Source: Polyangiaceae bacterium (lineage in GTDB: Bacteria > Myxococcota_A > Polyangia > Polyangiales > Polyangiaceae). Taken from it: a stretch of 64,000 nt of DNA. A program made the position numbers and the translations under genes. The stretch lies in NCBI GenBank assembly GCA_029261965.1, contig JAJDAH010000039.1, positions 62,001 to 126,000 of the forward strand, in the 5' to 3' direction. Below the pieces are notes generated by a model. It was not told where the DNA came from. It saw only the letters and a list, made by a program, of their open reading frames with translations, and searched no databases. This document shows, one piece after another, positions 54,518-62,067 of this stretch (the stretch's first letter is position 1; each line of letters opens with the position of its first letter).

Positions 54518-54783
54518 ACGTCTGCCGCTCCCTTCGACGCGACCCGCTGGGCGCGGTCGTGACGGTCGCGCGAGCGCCGCGGGGAGCGTGACGAGGCCAC
54601 GTGAGCACCGCGCTCGACTCGGCGATGGCGCCGGAGGCGGTGTAGCCCGACCCTGGGGGCATCTCCGGCAAACCCATGAAATCAGCCCACTTATCTGAAG
54701 TTTGGGGATCAACCGTAGGAAAAGCCTCACGAGCGGCGTCGAACCCTCAGAGCCCAAAAGCGGGCCCGAAGGAGATTATCGAG

Positions 54784-55833
54784 ATGCGAAATCGCACCAT
54801 CAGTTACACGGTCGTGGCCATTGCACTTTTGGGCGTCGGCTGCGCTACCGGCTCTGACGGAAAACAGCCCGTCGAGCAGCCCGAGGTCAAGCAGGAGGCG
54901 CAACTGGCAGAGCCCTCCGCCCAGCCGGATCGCGGCAAGCGCCACGGCAAAAACGGCAAGCACGGCAAGCAGCACGGTAAGCGTGGCGCCGACCTCATTG
55001 GCGGAGCGCTCGAGTTCGTCGACCTGAGCGACGAGCAGCGCACCAAGATCGAGGCGCTGCGCAACGGCCTGCGCGGTGACCCCGCCGCGCGCCACGAGGC
55101 GCACAAAGAACACAAGGCCAAGCTCATCGCCGCCATCCGTTCGGGCAACCTCGCGGACCTCGAGATCGACAAGGCCGCGATGGAAAAACGCATGAGCGAG
55201 AAGACGACGAAGATCGTCAGCGCGTTGAACGAGCTCCACCAAACGCTCGACGCCAGTCAGCGCGAGACGCTGGTCGACACGCTCCGGGCCAAACACGAAG
55301 CGCGATCGAAGCGCCGGGCAGAACGAAAAGGCGCCAAGGGTGACGGCGAGAAAATGCGTCGGCACGAAGGCAAGGCCAAGGGCAAACACATGCGCGGCGG
55401 TTTTGGTCGGTTCATGAAGGATCTCGACCTCACCGAAGAGCAGCGCGCGAAGCTCGACGCCGCTCGCCCCACCGACAGACCCAGTCGTGGCGAGTGGAAG
55501 GCCAAGCGCGAGGCCCGGGCGAAGAAGATGACCGAGACGCTCACGGCGTTCGCGAAGGCCGACTTCGACGCCGCCCGTCTCGATCTCGGCGCACGGTTCT
55601 CCGAGCACATGGCCCACGGAATGAACCGCGGAATGAAGCACTTCGAGACGCTTCTGCCCATTCTGACGCCGGCGCAGCGGACGAAGCTCGCCGACAAGAT
55701 GCAGCTACGGTTCGAGCAAATGAAGGACCGAAAGCTCGATCGACCGGGGCATGGCGGCATGCTCGACATGCAAAACCCGGCGGACGAGCCCCCTACGGAA
55801 GAAATCGTGGAGCCCGAGGCTCTCGAGCTCTAA
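54784..55833 (+). CDS. Spy/CpxP-like periplasmic lipoprotein with LTxxQ repeats
   Basis: A 349-aa lipoprotein with lipobox LLGVGC and a Lys/Gly/His-rich segment (GKRHGKNGKHGKQHGKRG) that could bind metal or anionic surfaces. The helical body has three LTxxQ-like motifs: LSDEQRTKIEAL, LTEEQRAKLDAA and LTPAQRTKLADK, as in Spy and CpxP chaperone-sensors. AAGGAG lies 8-13 bases before ATG 54784. It heads a cluster with the ECF sigma gene, a putative anti-sigma protein and a CnrX-like sensor. It may be the effector or a sensor of envelope or metal stress. Confidence 0.85.
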   Translation: MRNRTISYTVVAIALLGVGCATGSDGKQPVEQPEVKQEAQLAEPSAQPDRGKRHGKNGKHGKQHGKRGADLIGGALEFVDLSDEQRTKIEALRNGLRGDPAARHEAHKEHKAKLIAAIRSGNLADLEIDKAAMEKRMSEKTTKIVSALNELHQTLDASQRETLVDTLRAKHEARSKRRAERKGAKGDGEKMRRHEGKAKGKHMRGGFGRFMKDLDLTEEQRAKLDAARPTDRPSRGEWKAKREARAKKMTETLTAFAKADFDAARLDLGARFSEHMAHGMNRGMKHFETLLPILTPAQRTKLADKMQLRFEQMKDRKLDRPGHGGMLDMQNPADEPPTEEIVEPEALEL

Positions 55834-55930: not shown

Positions 55931-56488
55931 GTGAGCGCCGACCTGAAGCTGATGGCCGCGAGAGCGGCGGACGGCGACCAGCCGGCGTTTCGCGCGATCG
56001 TGGCGCACACCCAAGACCGTCTCTACCGTCTGGCTGCGCGCATCATGGGAAACACCGCGGACGCGGAGGACGTGCTGCAAGACGCCTACATCAAAGCGCA
56101 TCGCGCGCTCACCGGCGGGCGGTTCGAATCGCGAGCGGACGTGTCCACGTGGCTTCATCGCATCGTGACCAACCGTGCCATCGACTCGTTGCGCGCCCGA
56201 GACCGACGCAAAGAGGACGGACCAACGGACGAGCCATCGTCGTAGGCGCCCGCCATCGCACGATTCGACCAGCACGTGACTCAAGACGTGTAGTTGGCGC
56301 TCGAGGAGCTCGGCGAGTGGCTCGACGCGCTGCCGCCGCAACAGCGGGCGGCGATCGTTCTCAAGGCCGTGGAAGGCTACACGACGGCGGAAACCGCGGA
56401 GATTCTCGAGCTGACTGCCGGCGCGGTCGAGCAGCTGTTGGTCCGCGCGCGCTCGACGCTTCGGCTCCGGAGGGCGAGCGGTGAGTGA
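55931..56488 (+). pseudogene. ECF sigma factor interrupted by two in-frame TAG codons
   Basis: The frame from GTG 55931 encodes sigma region 2 (AFRAIVAHTQDRLYRLAARI, NTADAEDVLQDAYIKAHRAL, VSTWLHRIVTNRAIDSLRAR), then TAG at 56243. The same frame continues as a plausible linker (APAIARFDQHVTQDV), meets a second TAG at 56291, and then gives region 4 (LDALPPQQRAAIVLKAVEGY, TTAETAEILELTAGAVEQLL, VRARSTLRL) up to TGA 56486. Read through, it would be about 185 residues, the normal ECF length, with both domains intact and no frameshift. It may be a young pseudogene, two split polypeptides, or a read-through gene. A TTG at 56294 follows the second TAG but has no clear ribosome site. Confidence 0.75.
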
Positions 56489-56852
56489 CCAGCACGAAGA
56501 CCGGCTGAAGGAGCTCGCCGCCGAGACCGCGGAGCTTCGACCGAACGACGACTTTGCCGACGCCGTCGTCGAAGCCGCATTCGACGACGACGTGAATCGC
56601 CGGCTCGAAGCCTTCGCCAAGGCGACCGCAGATCTTCGCCCGACCAACGAGCTCCCGGACGCCGTGCTCGCCAAGCTCGGTGACCGGCCGGCACCAGAGG
56701 CCCTCGGCTCGGACATCTGGAGGACGGGCCGCGTCGTCGTCGCGGGCTTCGCCGCGGCCGCCGCCGCCTGCATCGTGTGGGCCGCCCAGGCCGAGAACGC
56801 CGTCGACGAACAAGTCATTGCCACCTTCGACGTCGTGGAGCTCGAGCAATGA
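56481..56852 (+). CDS. Putative single-pass anti-sigma protein
   Basis: A 123-aa protein starting at GTG 56481, overlapping the sigma gene by eight bases. The first 75 residues are helical and acidic, with a repeated motif (ETAELRPNDDFADAVVEAAF and ATADLRPTNELPDAVLAKLG); one membrane helix (TGRVVVAGFAAAAAACIVWA) precedes a short outer end. This is the layout of an anti-sigma factor that holds sigma at the membrane, comparable in place to CnrY. It has no zinc anti-sigma HxxxCxxC motif. The stop overlaps the next start. Confidence 0.65.
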   Translation: MSDQHEDRLKELAAETAELRPNDDFADAVVEAAFDDDVNRRLEAFAKATADLRPTNELPDAVLAKLGDRPAPEALGSDIWRTGRVVVAGFAAAAAACIVWAAQAENAVDEQVIATFDVVELEQ

Positions 56853-57235
56853 AAGGTTTCTCCTGGAAAGCCGGTGTCGTCTTGCTCGTCACCTTCGTGC
56901 TCGGCGGCGTCGCCGGCGGTTTTGCGATGCGCGCCACCCACCACAAACGCTTCGGCCGCCACTTCGGCGGACCGCCCCACGAAGCCCGCGAAAAGTTCCT
57001 GGTCGAAGCCATGTCGCGTCGCCTGGATCTCGACGACGGGCAGCGCGACAAGATCCGCACGATCATCGAGTCTCATCGAGACGAACGCCGAGCAATCTCC
57101 GAGAAGTGCCGACCCGAGCACGACGCCCTGCGAGACAAGGTCGACGCCGAAGTCGCCGCCGTGCTCACCCCCGAACAAAAGAAGCTGCACGAGGAGCTAC
57201 GAGAGCGCCGCGCAAAACGCCGCAAGCGACACTAA
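56849..57235 (+). CDS. CnrX-like periplasmic metal-sensor/LTxxQ protein
   Basis: A 128-aa protein with an N-terminal membrane anchor (AGVVLLVTFVLGGVAGGFAM), a His/Arg-rich stretch (THHKRFGRHFGG), and a helical hairpin with LDDGQRDKIRTII and LTPEQKKLHEELR, matching the heavy-metal-resistance (CnrX/NccX-like) and Spy fold. The His residues near the membrane could bind a metal ion. ATG 56849 overlaps the previous stop by four bases. With sigma and anti-sigma-like genes upstream it completes a CnrYXH-like set. Metal specificity is not determinable. Confidence 0.75.
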   Translation: MKGFSWKAGVVLLVTFVLGGVAGGFAMRATHHKRFGRHFGGPPHEAREKFLVEAMSRRLDLDDGQRDKIRTIIESHRDERRAISEKCRPEHDALRDKVDAEVAAVLTPEQKKLHEELRERRAKRRKRH

Positions 57236-57512
57236 AGCGCCGCCCCCCCCCTCCGAAGCATCCACCCGAAAATGAAAGCGAACGTCACATTCCCGGGCAC
57301 ATGCCTACCCATGCCTCTCGAAACGTAACGTTCTCTCTCATTTCGACCGGGATGCTTCCCGCGCCGCCCCCCCCTCCGAAGCATCCACCCGAAGCATCCA
57401 CCCGAAAATGAAAGCGAACGTCACATTCCCGGGCACATGCCTACCCATGCCCCTCGAAATGTAACGTTCTCTCTCATTTCGACCGGGATGCTTCCCGCGC
57501 CGCCACAGAGCG
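57236..57512 (+). repeat. Repeat element copies E1 and E2 (two 98-bp elements, direct repeat of 136 bp)
   Basis: Two near-identical 98-bp elements lie at 57258-57355 and 57394-57491, 136 bases apart, each bounded by GCATCC and GGATGC. In E2, TCGAAATG (in 57455-57462) pairs with CATTTCGA (57476-57483). E2 has a 15-base duplication (GAAGCATCCACCCGA) before it. Flanks (CCGCCCCCCCCTCCGAA) are shared. Length and architecture match copies B-D, but the inner sequence has diverged. The gap 57236-57719 holds no gene. Confidence 0.85.
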
Positions 57513-58603: not shown

Positions 58604-59221
58604 GTGCGAGGCGTGCAGGACGTGCCGAGCGACGCTGAGCTGCTCGAGGTGTGGCGCGGCGGCGACGCGCCCGCGGGAGAGGCGCTGCTCGGGCGTCACT
58701 TCGACGCGATCTATCGATTTTTTTCCCACAAGACCGGAGAAGACGTCTCGGATCTCGTGCAGCGCACCTTCCTCGGACTCGTCGAGGCACGCGAGCGCTT
58801 CCGCGCCGAAGCTAGCGTGAGAACGTACCTCTTTGCGATCGCGCGAAACGTGCTGAAGAAGCACTTCGAAGACCGACGCAAGGAGTCGGTCAACTTCGAG
58901 CTCTCGACGCTCGAAGACCTCGCGCCATCACCGAGCTCGCTCGTGCGACACCGGCGGACCGAGGCGCTTTTGGTGAGCGCCCTCCGAAAAATCCCCCTCG
59001 ACCAGCAGATCGCGCTCGAGCTCCACTACTGGGAAGGTTTGAGCGGATCGGAGGTCTCGACCGTGCTCGACATTCCCGAAGCCACCGTGCGCAGTCGTCT
59101 GCGCATCGGCATCGAGAAGCTGCGCTCGCACCTCGAGAGCGTGGATGCCGGAGATCTTTCGTTCGACGACGACGAGTCTTTCGAGACGTGGGCGAAGTCC
59201 GTCCAGCCGTACTCGCGCTGA
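58604..59221 (+). CDS. ECF-type RNA polymerase sigma factor
   Basis: A 205-aa sigma factor with region 2 (FDAIYRFFSHKTGEDVSDLV, QRTFLGLVEARERFRAEASV, RTYLFAIARNVLKKHF) and region 4 (LVSALRKIPLDQQIALELHY, SGSEVSTVLDIPEATVRSRL, RIGIEKLRSHL). An acidic C-terminal tail (DAGDLSFDDDESFETWAKSV) of about 30 residues extends past region 4 and could control it. GTG 58604 is used; GTG 58613 and 58622 are alternatives. It converges on a large kinase-TPR gene with five bases between. No anti-sigma gene is adjacent. Confidence 0.93.
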   Translation: MRGVQDVPSDAELLEVWRGGDAPAGEALLGRHFDAIYRFFSHKTGEDVSDLVQRTFLGLVEARERFRAEASVRTYLFAIARNVLKKHFEDRRKESVNFELSTLEDLAPSPSSLVRHRRTEALLVSALRKIPLDQQIALELHYWEGLSGSEVSTVLDIPEATVRSRLRIGIEKLRSHLESVDAGDLSFDDDESFETWAKSVQPYSR

Positions 59222-59226
59222 GCCGA

Positions 59227-62067
59227 TCAAAAGCGGGTGTGCCAGACGTCCGGCCACGGCCGCGAATTCTTCGGGTGAGCTCGGGTCGAGAGCGACGGCG
59301 CGTCGAGCCAGGCGGTGACTTCGCCACGCTGTGCTTTCGCGAGCGGCTCGTCCGCCGACAGCGCGGCGAGCGCGTCGCGGGCCAGCGCTTCGGCGCGCTC
59401 TCGTTCGCCCGACTCGTAGAGCACGCGCGCCAGCGCGAACGAGAGCAGCGCGCTCGTGGGCGTTTCGACCTTCTTCGAAGCTCCCGTCGACATGGCGTGG
59501 GCGCGTTCGAGGGGCCCCCGCGCGGCGTTCGTTCTTCCGGCCGCCAAGTGGGTGAGGCCGAGGCCCATCAGAGAAAACATGAGCCGATGCGCGCCAGGAT
59601 CGCTACGCGCCTCGCCGATCTCGATCGCGCGACGGTAGACTCGTTCCGCGTCTTCGAGCCGGTCGAGTGCACGGAGCGCGTTGCCGAGCTGGAACAACAC
59701 CACCTCCATCGACGGATGTTGCTCCGGGATCGCGGCCTCGTAGATTTTCTTGGCTCGCTCGAACGATTTTTTCGCAGCCTCGAAGTCGCCTTTTCGGTAG
59801 AGCACTTGCCCCTCGCCGGCCACGGCGGCACCTCGCTGGTGCTCGTGGCCGGCCGCCGCATAGGCGCGCTCGGCGCAACGGTAGAGCTCTATGGCTCGCG
59901 GGTAGTCGCCATGCTGCATCTTGAACCACGCAAAGTTGTTGCAGATGCGCGCGGTCTCCCGGTGCTCGGGTCCAAAATCCCGGCCCGCGATGCTCAACGC
60001 CTTTTCGTACAGCGACGCGGCGTTCTCGAACTGCTTTTTGGAGGCAGCGCAAATCGCCAGGCGGTCGTAAGAGTTGACGAAGTCCGGATGGTCGGGGCCG
60101 AGCGTGCTTTTTCGAATTTCGTAGGCTTCTTCGTGGTGCTCGCACTCGGAGCCGAGCCCCGCCTTGCCAGCGGCGACGCCGACGCGGGACAGCACCGTCG
60201 CGACCTGAGGATGGTTGCTTCGATACGCCGCCCGAGTCTCGTCCAGAGCGCCGCGAAGCACCCGGAGCGCCTGCTCGTGGTCCCCGGCGCGCGTCAGCAT
60301 CCAACCGTGAGTCGCGTGCACCTCGGCAAGTAAACGTGGAGATGGCGACGCCGTTTCTAGTGCCGCGTCGGCGATATGAGTCCACTTCAACGCGTCGTCG
60401 TAGCGCCCACGGGCGACCCCCAGAGTCTGCGCCAGTCCGAGCGCAGAGCGCACGGCACCGACCTCGTTCGACGAGGCGACGCTCGCGATGTACGCATCGA
60501 ACAGCAGCGTTTCCGACCGTTCGTTCTTCCCGACGCCGCGGGCCATGTCGCCGGCCAGACGCAACGCTTCGGCTTCGAGCGGGCGCCATCCGATTTCTTT
60601 CGCCTGGGTCACCAGCGTTTCGGCCGCCTCGAACGCGTTCTTGTACCGCCCGGCGCTACCGAGCACCGTGACTCGTGTCAGCTCGCTCCGCACGGACTTG
60701 GCGCGGTCTTGCACGGCCGCCGGCGGAAGAAGAAGCCTCGCGGGGCGTCTGCATGCACTCGGTTGGGGCAACTCGTCCACGATGCGCTCGGCGCGCGCGA
60801 CGACGTCGTGCTCGGGGACGCTGAGCAATCGCAGCGCTTCGTCTGCCGCCGAGAGGGACTCTTTTAGGCAGTCCATCCGGACATCGAGGCGGGCTGCGGA
60901 TTGCTCGTGGCGCTCACTGGTGGCCTCACACGCATCGACGTACTCGTCGGACCAGTTCTTCGTGAACCGGTCGAGCGCCAGAGTGGCGAGCTCGAGCGAA
61001 CGAGTAGCGTAGGTCGCTTTGGACTCGCGGAACGCCAGAGCGACCTCTTTCCGCCGCACGTCGTTCCAAACGGCCTGCCAATGCTCGTCCCCCGTAGAGC
61101 AAGCGGGGTCGAGCGACGACGCCACTGCGCCGATGCCGACGGCAGCCGTAGCTGCAAACGCCAGGCCCGCGACGATCCGACGACGACGTGGCGCGGAGTG
61201 GAGATTTTGCACGAGAGCATCCATCGACGGGAAGCGCGCTCGGGGATCGGGATCGAGCGCTCGGTCGATGGCGCTTCGGAGCCACCTCGGGACCTTCTGG
61301 GACAGCGGCCTCTTTTGCCCCGCGAGAAGCGAATCGCGGAGCACCGCGGCGTCGCCAACCCCAAAGGGGCGACAGCCTTCGAGCGCCTCGTACAGCACCA
61401 CGGCAAACGCGAACTGATCACTGGGCGCGCCGGCGGCTTCACCTCGCCAAAGCTCCGGGGCCATGTAGGCGGGGGTGCCGCGGAGACCCGTCGACGATGA
61501 CGGTGACGTGCTCACCTCGCCTTCGACTCCCACCGCGAGACCGAAATCGACGACTCGTGCGACGCCATCGGAGTCCAGGATCACGTTCTCGGGCTTGAAG
61601 TCTCGGTGGATCAACCCGCTTCGATGGGCGGCGGCCAGGCCGCGGCCGGCGCCGAGCAAGACCCTCAGCACCTCGCGTTGGCTTCTGCGCTCGGCATCGA
61701 GCCAGGCGCGCAGCGTGGTCCCCTCCACCAACTCCATCGCCAAGAACAAGACGCCCTCTTCCTCACCGATGTCGTGAACCGCGACGACGTTCGGGTGCGA
61801 AAGCTTGGCGAGCGCACGACCCTCCTCCTCGATTCGACGCCCAGCGGCGGCCGCAACCGCGCCGAGGGGCGGCGTGAGCAGCTTCAGCGCGACTGGGCGC
61901 TCGAGACGCGGATCGAAGGCGCGGTAGACGACGCCGCTCGCGCCCTCGCCGAGCCGAGCCCGCACCTCGAACCTTCCGAGAAATCGAGACTCGACGGGGG
62001 CGCCGAACAGCCCCTCGCGCACGGCGTCCAGGACACGGTCCCGTTCGAAGTCGAACGCCTCGTTCAC
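59227..62067 (-). CDS. Ser/Thr protein kinase with membrane helix and long TPR tail
   Basis: A 946-aa protein. The kinase domain (about residues 30-290) has LGEGASGVVYRAFDP, VALKLL, HRDFKPENVILD (HRDF in place of HRDL), DFGLAVG, GTPAYMAPE and SDQFAFAVVLYEALEGCRPF. One membrane helix follows (VAGLAFAATAAVGIGAVASS, about 305-325). The outer 600 residues are TPR-like helical repeats, for example YEKALSIAGRDFGPEHRETA and RAIELYRCAERAYAAAGHEH, of the NB-ARC/kinesin-light-chain-like class. This kinase-TPR design is common in Polyangia, often beside a sigma factor as here. GTG start 62067. Confidence 0.92.
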   Translation of the reverse strand: MNEAFDFERDRVLDAVREGLFGAPVESRFLGRFEVRARLGEGASGVVYRAFDPRLERPVALKLLTPPLGAVAAAAGRRIEEEGRALAKLSHPNVVAVHDIGEEEGVLFLAMELVEGTTLRAWLDAERRSQREVLRVLLGAGRGLAAAHRSGLIHRDFKPENVILDSDGVARVVDFGLAVGVEGEVSTSPSSSTGLRGTPAYMAPELWRGEAAGAPSDQFAFAVVLYEALEGCRPFGVGDAAVLRDSLLAGQKRPLSQKVPRWLRSAIDRALDPDPRARFPSMDALVQNLHSAPRRRRIVAGLAFAATAAVGIGAVASSLDPACSTGDEHWQAVWNDVRRKEVALAFRESKATYATRSLELATLALDRFTKNWSDEYVDACEATSERHEQSAARLDVRMDCLKESLSAADEALRLLSVPEHDVVARAERIVDELPQPSACRRPARLLLPPAAVQDRAKSVRSELTRVTVLGSAGRYKNAFEAAETLVTQAKEIGWRPLEAEALRLAGDMARGVGKNERSETLLFDAYIASVASSNEVGAVRSALGLAQTLGVARGRYDDALKWTHIADAALETASPSPRLLAEVHATHGWMLTRAGDHEQALRVLRGALDETRAAYRSNHPQVATVLSRVGVAAGKAGLGSECEHHEEAYEIRKSTLGPDHPDFVNSYDRLAICAASKKQFENAASLYEKALSIAGRDFGPEHRETARICNNFAWFKMQHGDYPRAIELYRCAERAYAAAGHEHQRGAAVAGEGQVLYRKGDFEAAKKSFERAKKIYEAAIPEQHPSMEVVLFQLGNALRALDRLEDAERVYRRAIEIGEARSDPGAHRLMFSLMGLGLTHLAAGRTNAARGPLERAHAMSTGASKKVETPTSALLSFALARVLYESGERERAEALARDALAALSADEPLAKAQRGEVTAWLDAPSLSTRAHPKNSRPWPDVWHTRF

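Follow-up and report, generated by a model that had tools for sequence, protein, structure and literature searches.

Two in-frame amber codons in the linker of an ECF sigma gene: a probable young nonsense pseudogene in a conserved stress operon

We describe an ECF sigma gene of a Polyangiaceae bacterium that is interrupted by two in-frame TAG codons. It is probably a null allele, a nonsense pseudogene of young age; the sigma would be autoregulated, and its conserved operon would respond to envelope or metal stress. Among the observations that favour this reading, the stops are private to this genome, set against uninterrupted genes in 45/45 orthologues; there is no general read-through; no tRNA with a CUA anticodon was found in the survey of the assembly; the TAG sites are variable positions; sigma4 shows mild decay at most; and three other ECFs that had been cut at the linker lost their function. 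The window is the whole stretch of DNA that was analysed (64,000 nucleotides), and positions refer to it unless a contig is named.

The sigma frame and its operon

The sigma frame occupies 55931–56488 (+), gives 185 residues on translation and ends in TGA. TAG interrupts it at codon 105 (56243–56245; TAG1) and at codon 121 (56291–56293; TAG2). The operon runs LTXXQ lipoprotein, sigma, anti-sigma, CnrX/Spy-like gene, and only sigma is interrupted. Its features are:

54714–54740 (+): CGTAGG-N17-CGTC ahead of the operon, a putative ECF promoter for autoregulation (bipartite word search)
54784–55833 (+): first operon gene, LTXXQ/CpxP-like lipoprotein, intact (Pfam LTXXQ, 6.8e-14)
55931–56245 (+): 5' part of the ECF sigma gene, with the sigma2 domain, ending at TAG1 (Pfam Sigma70_r2, E=1.5e-17)
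56246–56293 (+): linker codons from just after TAG1 up to and including TAG2 (coding-like codon usage; aligns to the orthologues' linker)
56294–56488 (+): 3' part of the ECF sigma gene, with the sigma4 domain (Pfam Sigma70_r4_2, E=2.8e-16, profile 2–54/54)
56481–56852 (+): membrane anti-sigma gene, intact, carrying a short motif twice (same-place orthologues; motif HMM)
56849–57235 (+): CnrX/Spy-like periplasmic sensor gene, intact (LTXXQ 3.6e-6, Metal_resist 4.6e-6)

A sequence-only reading of this DNA had described regions 2 and 4 as complete and in one frame across the two TAGs. Translation and Pfam bear this out—sigma2 lies wholly 5' of TAG1 and sigma4 wholly 3' of TAG2—and, as that reading also held, no frameshift is present in 55931–56488. 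The stop-interrupted frame is more than chance, since the 15 codons that separate the stops score as coding, as do both flanking domains. As expected of an ECF sigma, the frame holds sigma2 and sigma4 only, joined by a linker of fewer than 50 residues, and it has an adjoining anti-sigma gene (with orthologues that are also adjacent) and a conserved putative promoter; it departs from the definition in lacking a single uninterrupted reading frame, given the TAGs at 56243 and 56291.

Both stops are located in the linker, which at 27 residues in the read-through frame is the longest among 23 compared. In the orthologue alignment TAG1 falls within an insertion that is absent from most relatives, and the TAG2 column is filled in relatives by Arg, Gln, Trp, His or Ile codons. 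The linker holds about 12% of the gene's single-step TAG opportunities, which puts the chance of both stops falling there at about 1.5%, a post hoc figure.

About 600 codons of the neighbouring operon genes are intact. The earlier statement that the anti-sigma-like and CnrX-like neighbours are intact and overlap sigma is right on both genes being intact and on the anti-sigma frame, which shares 8 nt with the end of sigma; the overlap of the CnrX-like gene, however, is with the anti-sigma gene and not with sigma. A matching gene order surrounds many orthologous sigma genes, many of which likewise have an LTXXQ/CpxP-like gene upstream. In Pfam the sensor scores over the cut-off for LTXXQ and under it for Metal_resist (27.2 bits, cut-off 29.2), and its best PDB match is Spy, a weak one (E=0.006).

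The anti-sigma is a short protein with a single TM helix, and it has no family match in Pfam or NCBIfam. A motif, RLaxLAxaTaxLxPxxxFxdxVMxaV, precedes the membrane helix in one, two or three copies depending on the locus—by motif HMM, one at L070 and L212, two here and at L074, and about three at L079—and also occurs at L209, L213 and other loci. These copies are possibly repeated sigma-binding helices.

Just 3' of the operon, a segment of about 120 bp is directly duplicated (57230–57500 of the window); each copy starts with GAAGCATCCACCCGAAAATGAAAGCGAACGTCACATTCCCGGG and ends with its near reverse complement, CATTTCGACCGGGATGCTTCC. Further on are a second, intact ECF-type sigma gene (58604–59221, +) and a convergent protein-kinase gene (59227–62067, −).

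Putative promoter and proposed circuit

The word GTAGG-N17-CGTC is found upstream of the first gene in 8/8 independent groups, this genome included, with the longer CGTAGG in 7/8; in the control for this bipartite word search, shuffles reach at most 4 groups. CGTAGG-N17-CGTC stands at the operon in eight of nine genomes scanned, in one of them directly before sigma. It shows no genome-wide enrichment in these nine genomes, and a regulon outside the operon was rejected on counts of the pattern that are no higher than those of a reversed-pattern control in nearly all genomes scanned. Conservation of the site suggests that CGTAGG-N17-CGTC is probably an autoregulatory promoter, with the operon as its main target. 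Expression of the operon would be compatible with its intact neighbours and conserved promoter.

The operon is homologous to those around the orthologous sigma genes, and it retains both sigma domains and the promoter site in conserved form; to these observations we add a proposed mechanism, in which three elements are inferred: that a signal acts, that sigma regulates itself and that function has been lost. In the normal state, the membrane anti-sigma would hold sigma until a signal passing through the periplasmic LTXXQ/CnrX-like proteins frees it, and the freed sigma would then drive transcription of the operon that encodes it, starting at CGTAGG-N17-CGTC. In this genome, translation would halt after sigma2, so that no sigma4 would be made and the loop would be off.

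Orthologues and age of the damage

Among 184 genomes of the same order, searched at E<=1e-30, 46 carry the sigma gene. It is uninterrupted in 45 of these (identity 41–57%), with neither TAG present in any of the 45; the stops are exclusive to this genome. Intact orthologues combined with private stops are the pattern of a nonsense pseudogene. The sequence-only reading had named, as one refuting outcome, orthologues with a normal uninterrupted gene together with no protein made here; the first half of this is what the 45 orthologues show. A general database scan with the sigma found distant ECFs only.

The remainder of the gene has changed little. Its sigma4 is the least consensus-like of 35 compared, though not dramatically; 3 of 24 strongly conserved positions are altered, including Arg169 to Leu, and from the sequence these changes suggest mild decay at most. 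The ratio of the sigma4 to the sigma2 tip branch is 1.31, within the range of the intact orthologues, and any relaxation of constraint downstream of the stops is slight, again inside the range of intact genes. GC3 and codon bias hold through the linker and sigma4, past both stops. With the domains conserved, the codon bias and branch length as described, and the operon and promoter intact, either the damage is recent or the sigma gene is still functional in an unusual way.

These features also count against the pseudogene—sigma4 is well conserved, codon bias continues past the stops, and promoter and neighbours are intact—as does the location of both stops in the linker, and a second stop acquired by neutral drift would usually be accompanied by more surrounding damage. 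The earlier argument, that decay in most cases brings frameshifts too, carries little weight against a young pseudogene. We consider a functional sigma gene, whether a natural two-chain ECF or one whose level is set by double amber suppression via a mobile-element tRNA-Leu (UUA), to be unlikely.

A two-chain sigma

For the gene to work as two chains, sigma2 would end at TAG1, sigma4 would be reinitiated at TTG 56294, and the chains would cooperate like those of SigO-RsoA, a natural two-subunit sigma of Bacillus (PMC8103513). This known split sigma is a point in favour, as are two complete and conserved domains with the stops in the linker and a TTG immediately 3' of TAG2, which is the only plausible sigma4 restart. 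The Shine-Dalgarno sequence before this TTG is, however, not distinctive (38% of random internal GTG/TTG codons equal or exceed its score), the restart lies 48 nt past TAG1 with a second in-frame stop between, and the split is found in none of the 45 intact orthologues. In addition, three other ECFs that were cut at the linker in published work lost their function (PMC7090010). The two-chain sigma is disfavoured on the ordinary Shine-Dalgarno and this loss of activity, and we regard it as quite improbable.

Recoding, suppression and sequence error

The assembly comprises 9.59 Mb in 480 contigs, is 96.4% complete and is probably of metagenome origin. Internal stops are absent from its 42 other ECF matches, its 54 ABC domains and the roughly 150 kinase matches listed, and TAG is the terminator of 245 of 854 well-scored ORFs (~29%). 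Genome-wide recoding was rejected on these two results, and pyrrolysine on PylS, which has no match above the cut-off in the genome; release factor 1 is intact. Taken together, these results leave the two stops unexplained by recoding throughout the genome, and likewise by widespread sequence error. A coding-potential scan of 1.46 Mb of the genome, of low sensitivity, returned few and weak stop-interrupted candidates.

A further rival reading is an artefact of sequencing or assembly, or a minority strain variant in a metagenome-type assembly. Fragmentation and the probable metagenome origin make room for it, but some 245 homology-checked domains of the same genome have no internal stop, which makes two errors 48 nt apart, each yielding TAG, very unlikely; strain variation may still account for them. 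We give either origin little probability. Of the four options that the sequence-only reading had listed (young pseudogene, split sigma, amber read-through, sequencing error), the pseudogene ranks first, and sequencing error is unlikely.

A survey of the genome for amber suppressor tRNAs had been proposed. Among 65 tRNA matches none has a CUA anticodon, in a tRNA set that is probably incomplete, and the classical CUA amber suppressor was set aside on this survey. The set is probably incomplete because TTA codons are present in 156 of 897 ORFs, yet a normal Leu-UAA tRNA was not found in the assembly. Some 30 tRNA genes, many with low scores, stand in a dense array at C287:24576–30441 of this assembly (G000; L147), and a relative (G003; L182) has a similar array.

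The survey did return one Leu-type tRNA with the anticodon UUA (loop CUUUAAA), at C57:2269–2357 (G000; L156, L189). A suppressor of this kind might read both TAGs inefficiently and yield a little full-length sigma. Ochre suppressors of E. coli also read UAG. The C57 tRNA scores 58.6 bits as a tRNA, with acceptor, anticodon and variable stems well paired, and has UUA where the closest Leu tRNAs of relatives read UAA or CAA; the domains 3' of the stops are, moreover, still conserved. Against this, it lacks a conserved D-loop G (TG instead of GG), and it lies on a contig of 9.4 kb and 62% GC that is mobile-element-like, with integrase and DDE transposase genes, and that may be a contaminant. A search for relatives of this tRNA gave none in phages and one weak match in plasmids. 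TAG normally terminates ORFs in this genome, other tested genes lack internal stops, and inefficiency multiplies over two stops in series. Suppression is, in our judgement, quite improbable.

If the sigma gene is dead, as the pseudogene reading has it, the locus captures, very soon after its loss, a stress sigma that regulated itself, while its target promoter and its partners remain in place, and is useful chiefly to annotators. If it is functional, it would be an ECF sigma of a rare natural type, either split or controlled by suppression, and the C57 tRNA would be a candidate natural nonsense suppressor.

Comparison with known systems

In SigO-RsoA of Bacillus subtilis, as would be the case here, sigma2 and sigma4 sit on separate chains; the locus differs in giving no sign of a separate sigma4 start and in having single-chain orthologues. 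The frame shares its sigma2-sigma4 layout with ECF group IV (SigW, RpoE, CnrH), with profile matches of 1.4e-32 to SigW, 1.5e-27 to RpoE and 6.1e-24 to CnrH, and resembles that group in its adjoining anti-sigma gene and in CGTC as a −10-like element. It differs in its two linker TAGs and in a −35-like element, CGTAGG, in place of the usual AAC.

The operon had been called CnrYXH-like, which is apt for gene content and not for gene order. As in CnrYXH of Cupriavidus metallidurans, the ECF sigma gene lies beside genes for a small anti-sigma of the membrane and for a periplasmic protein of Metal_resist/LTXXQ type; here, however, the order is sigma, anti-sigma, sensor, with a lipoprotein gene upstream. 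The anti-sigma differs in having no family match and in carrying one to three motif copies depending on the locus, and is likened to CnrY as a short single-TM protein; the sensor is nearer Spy/CpxP in sequence.
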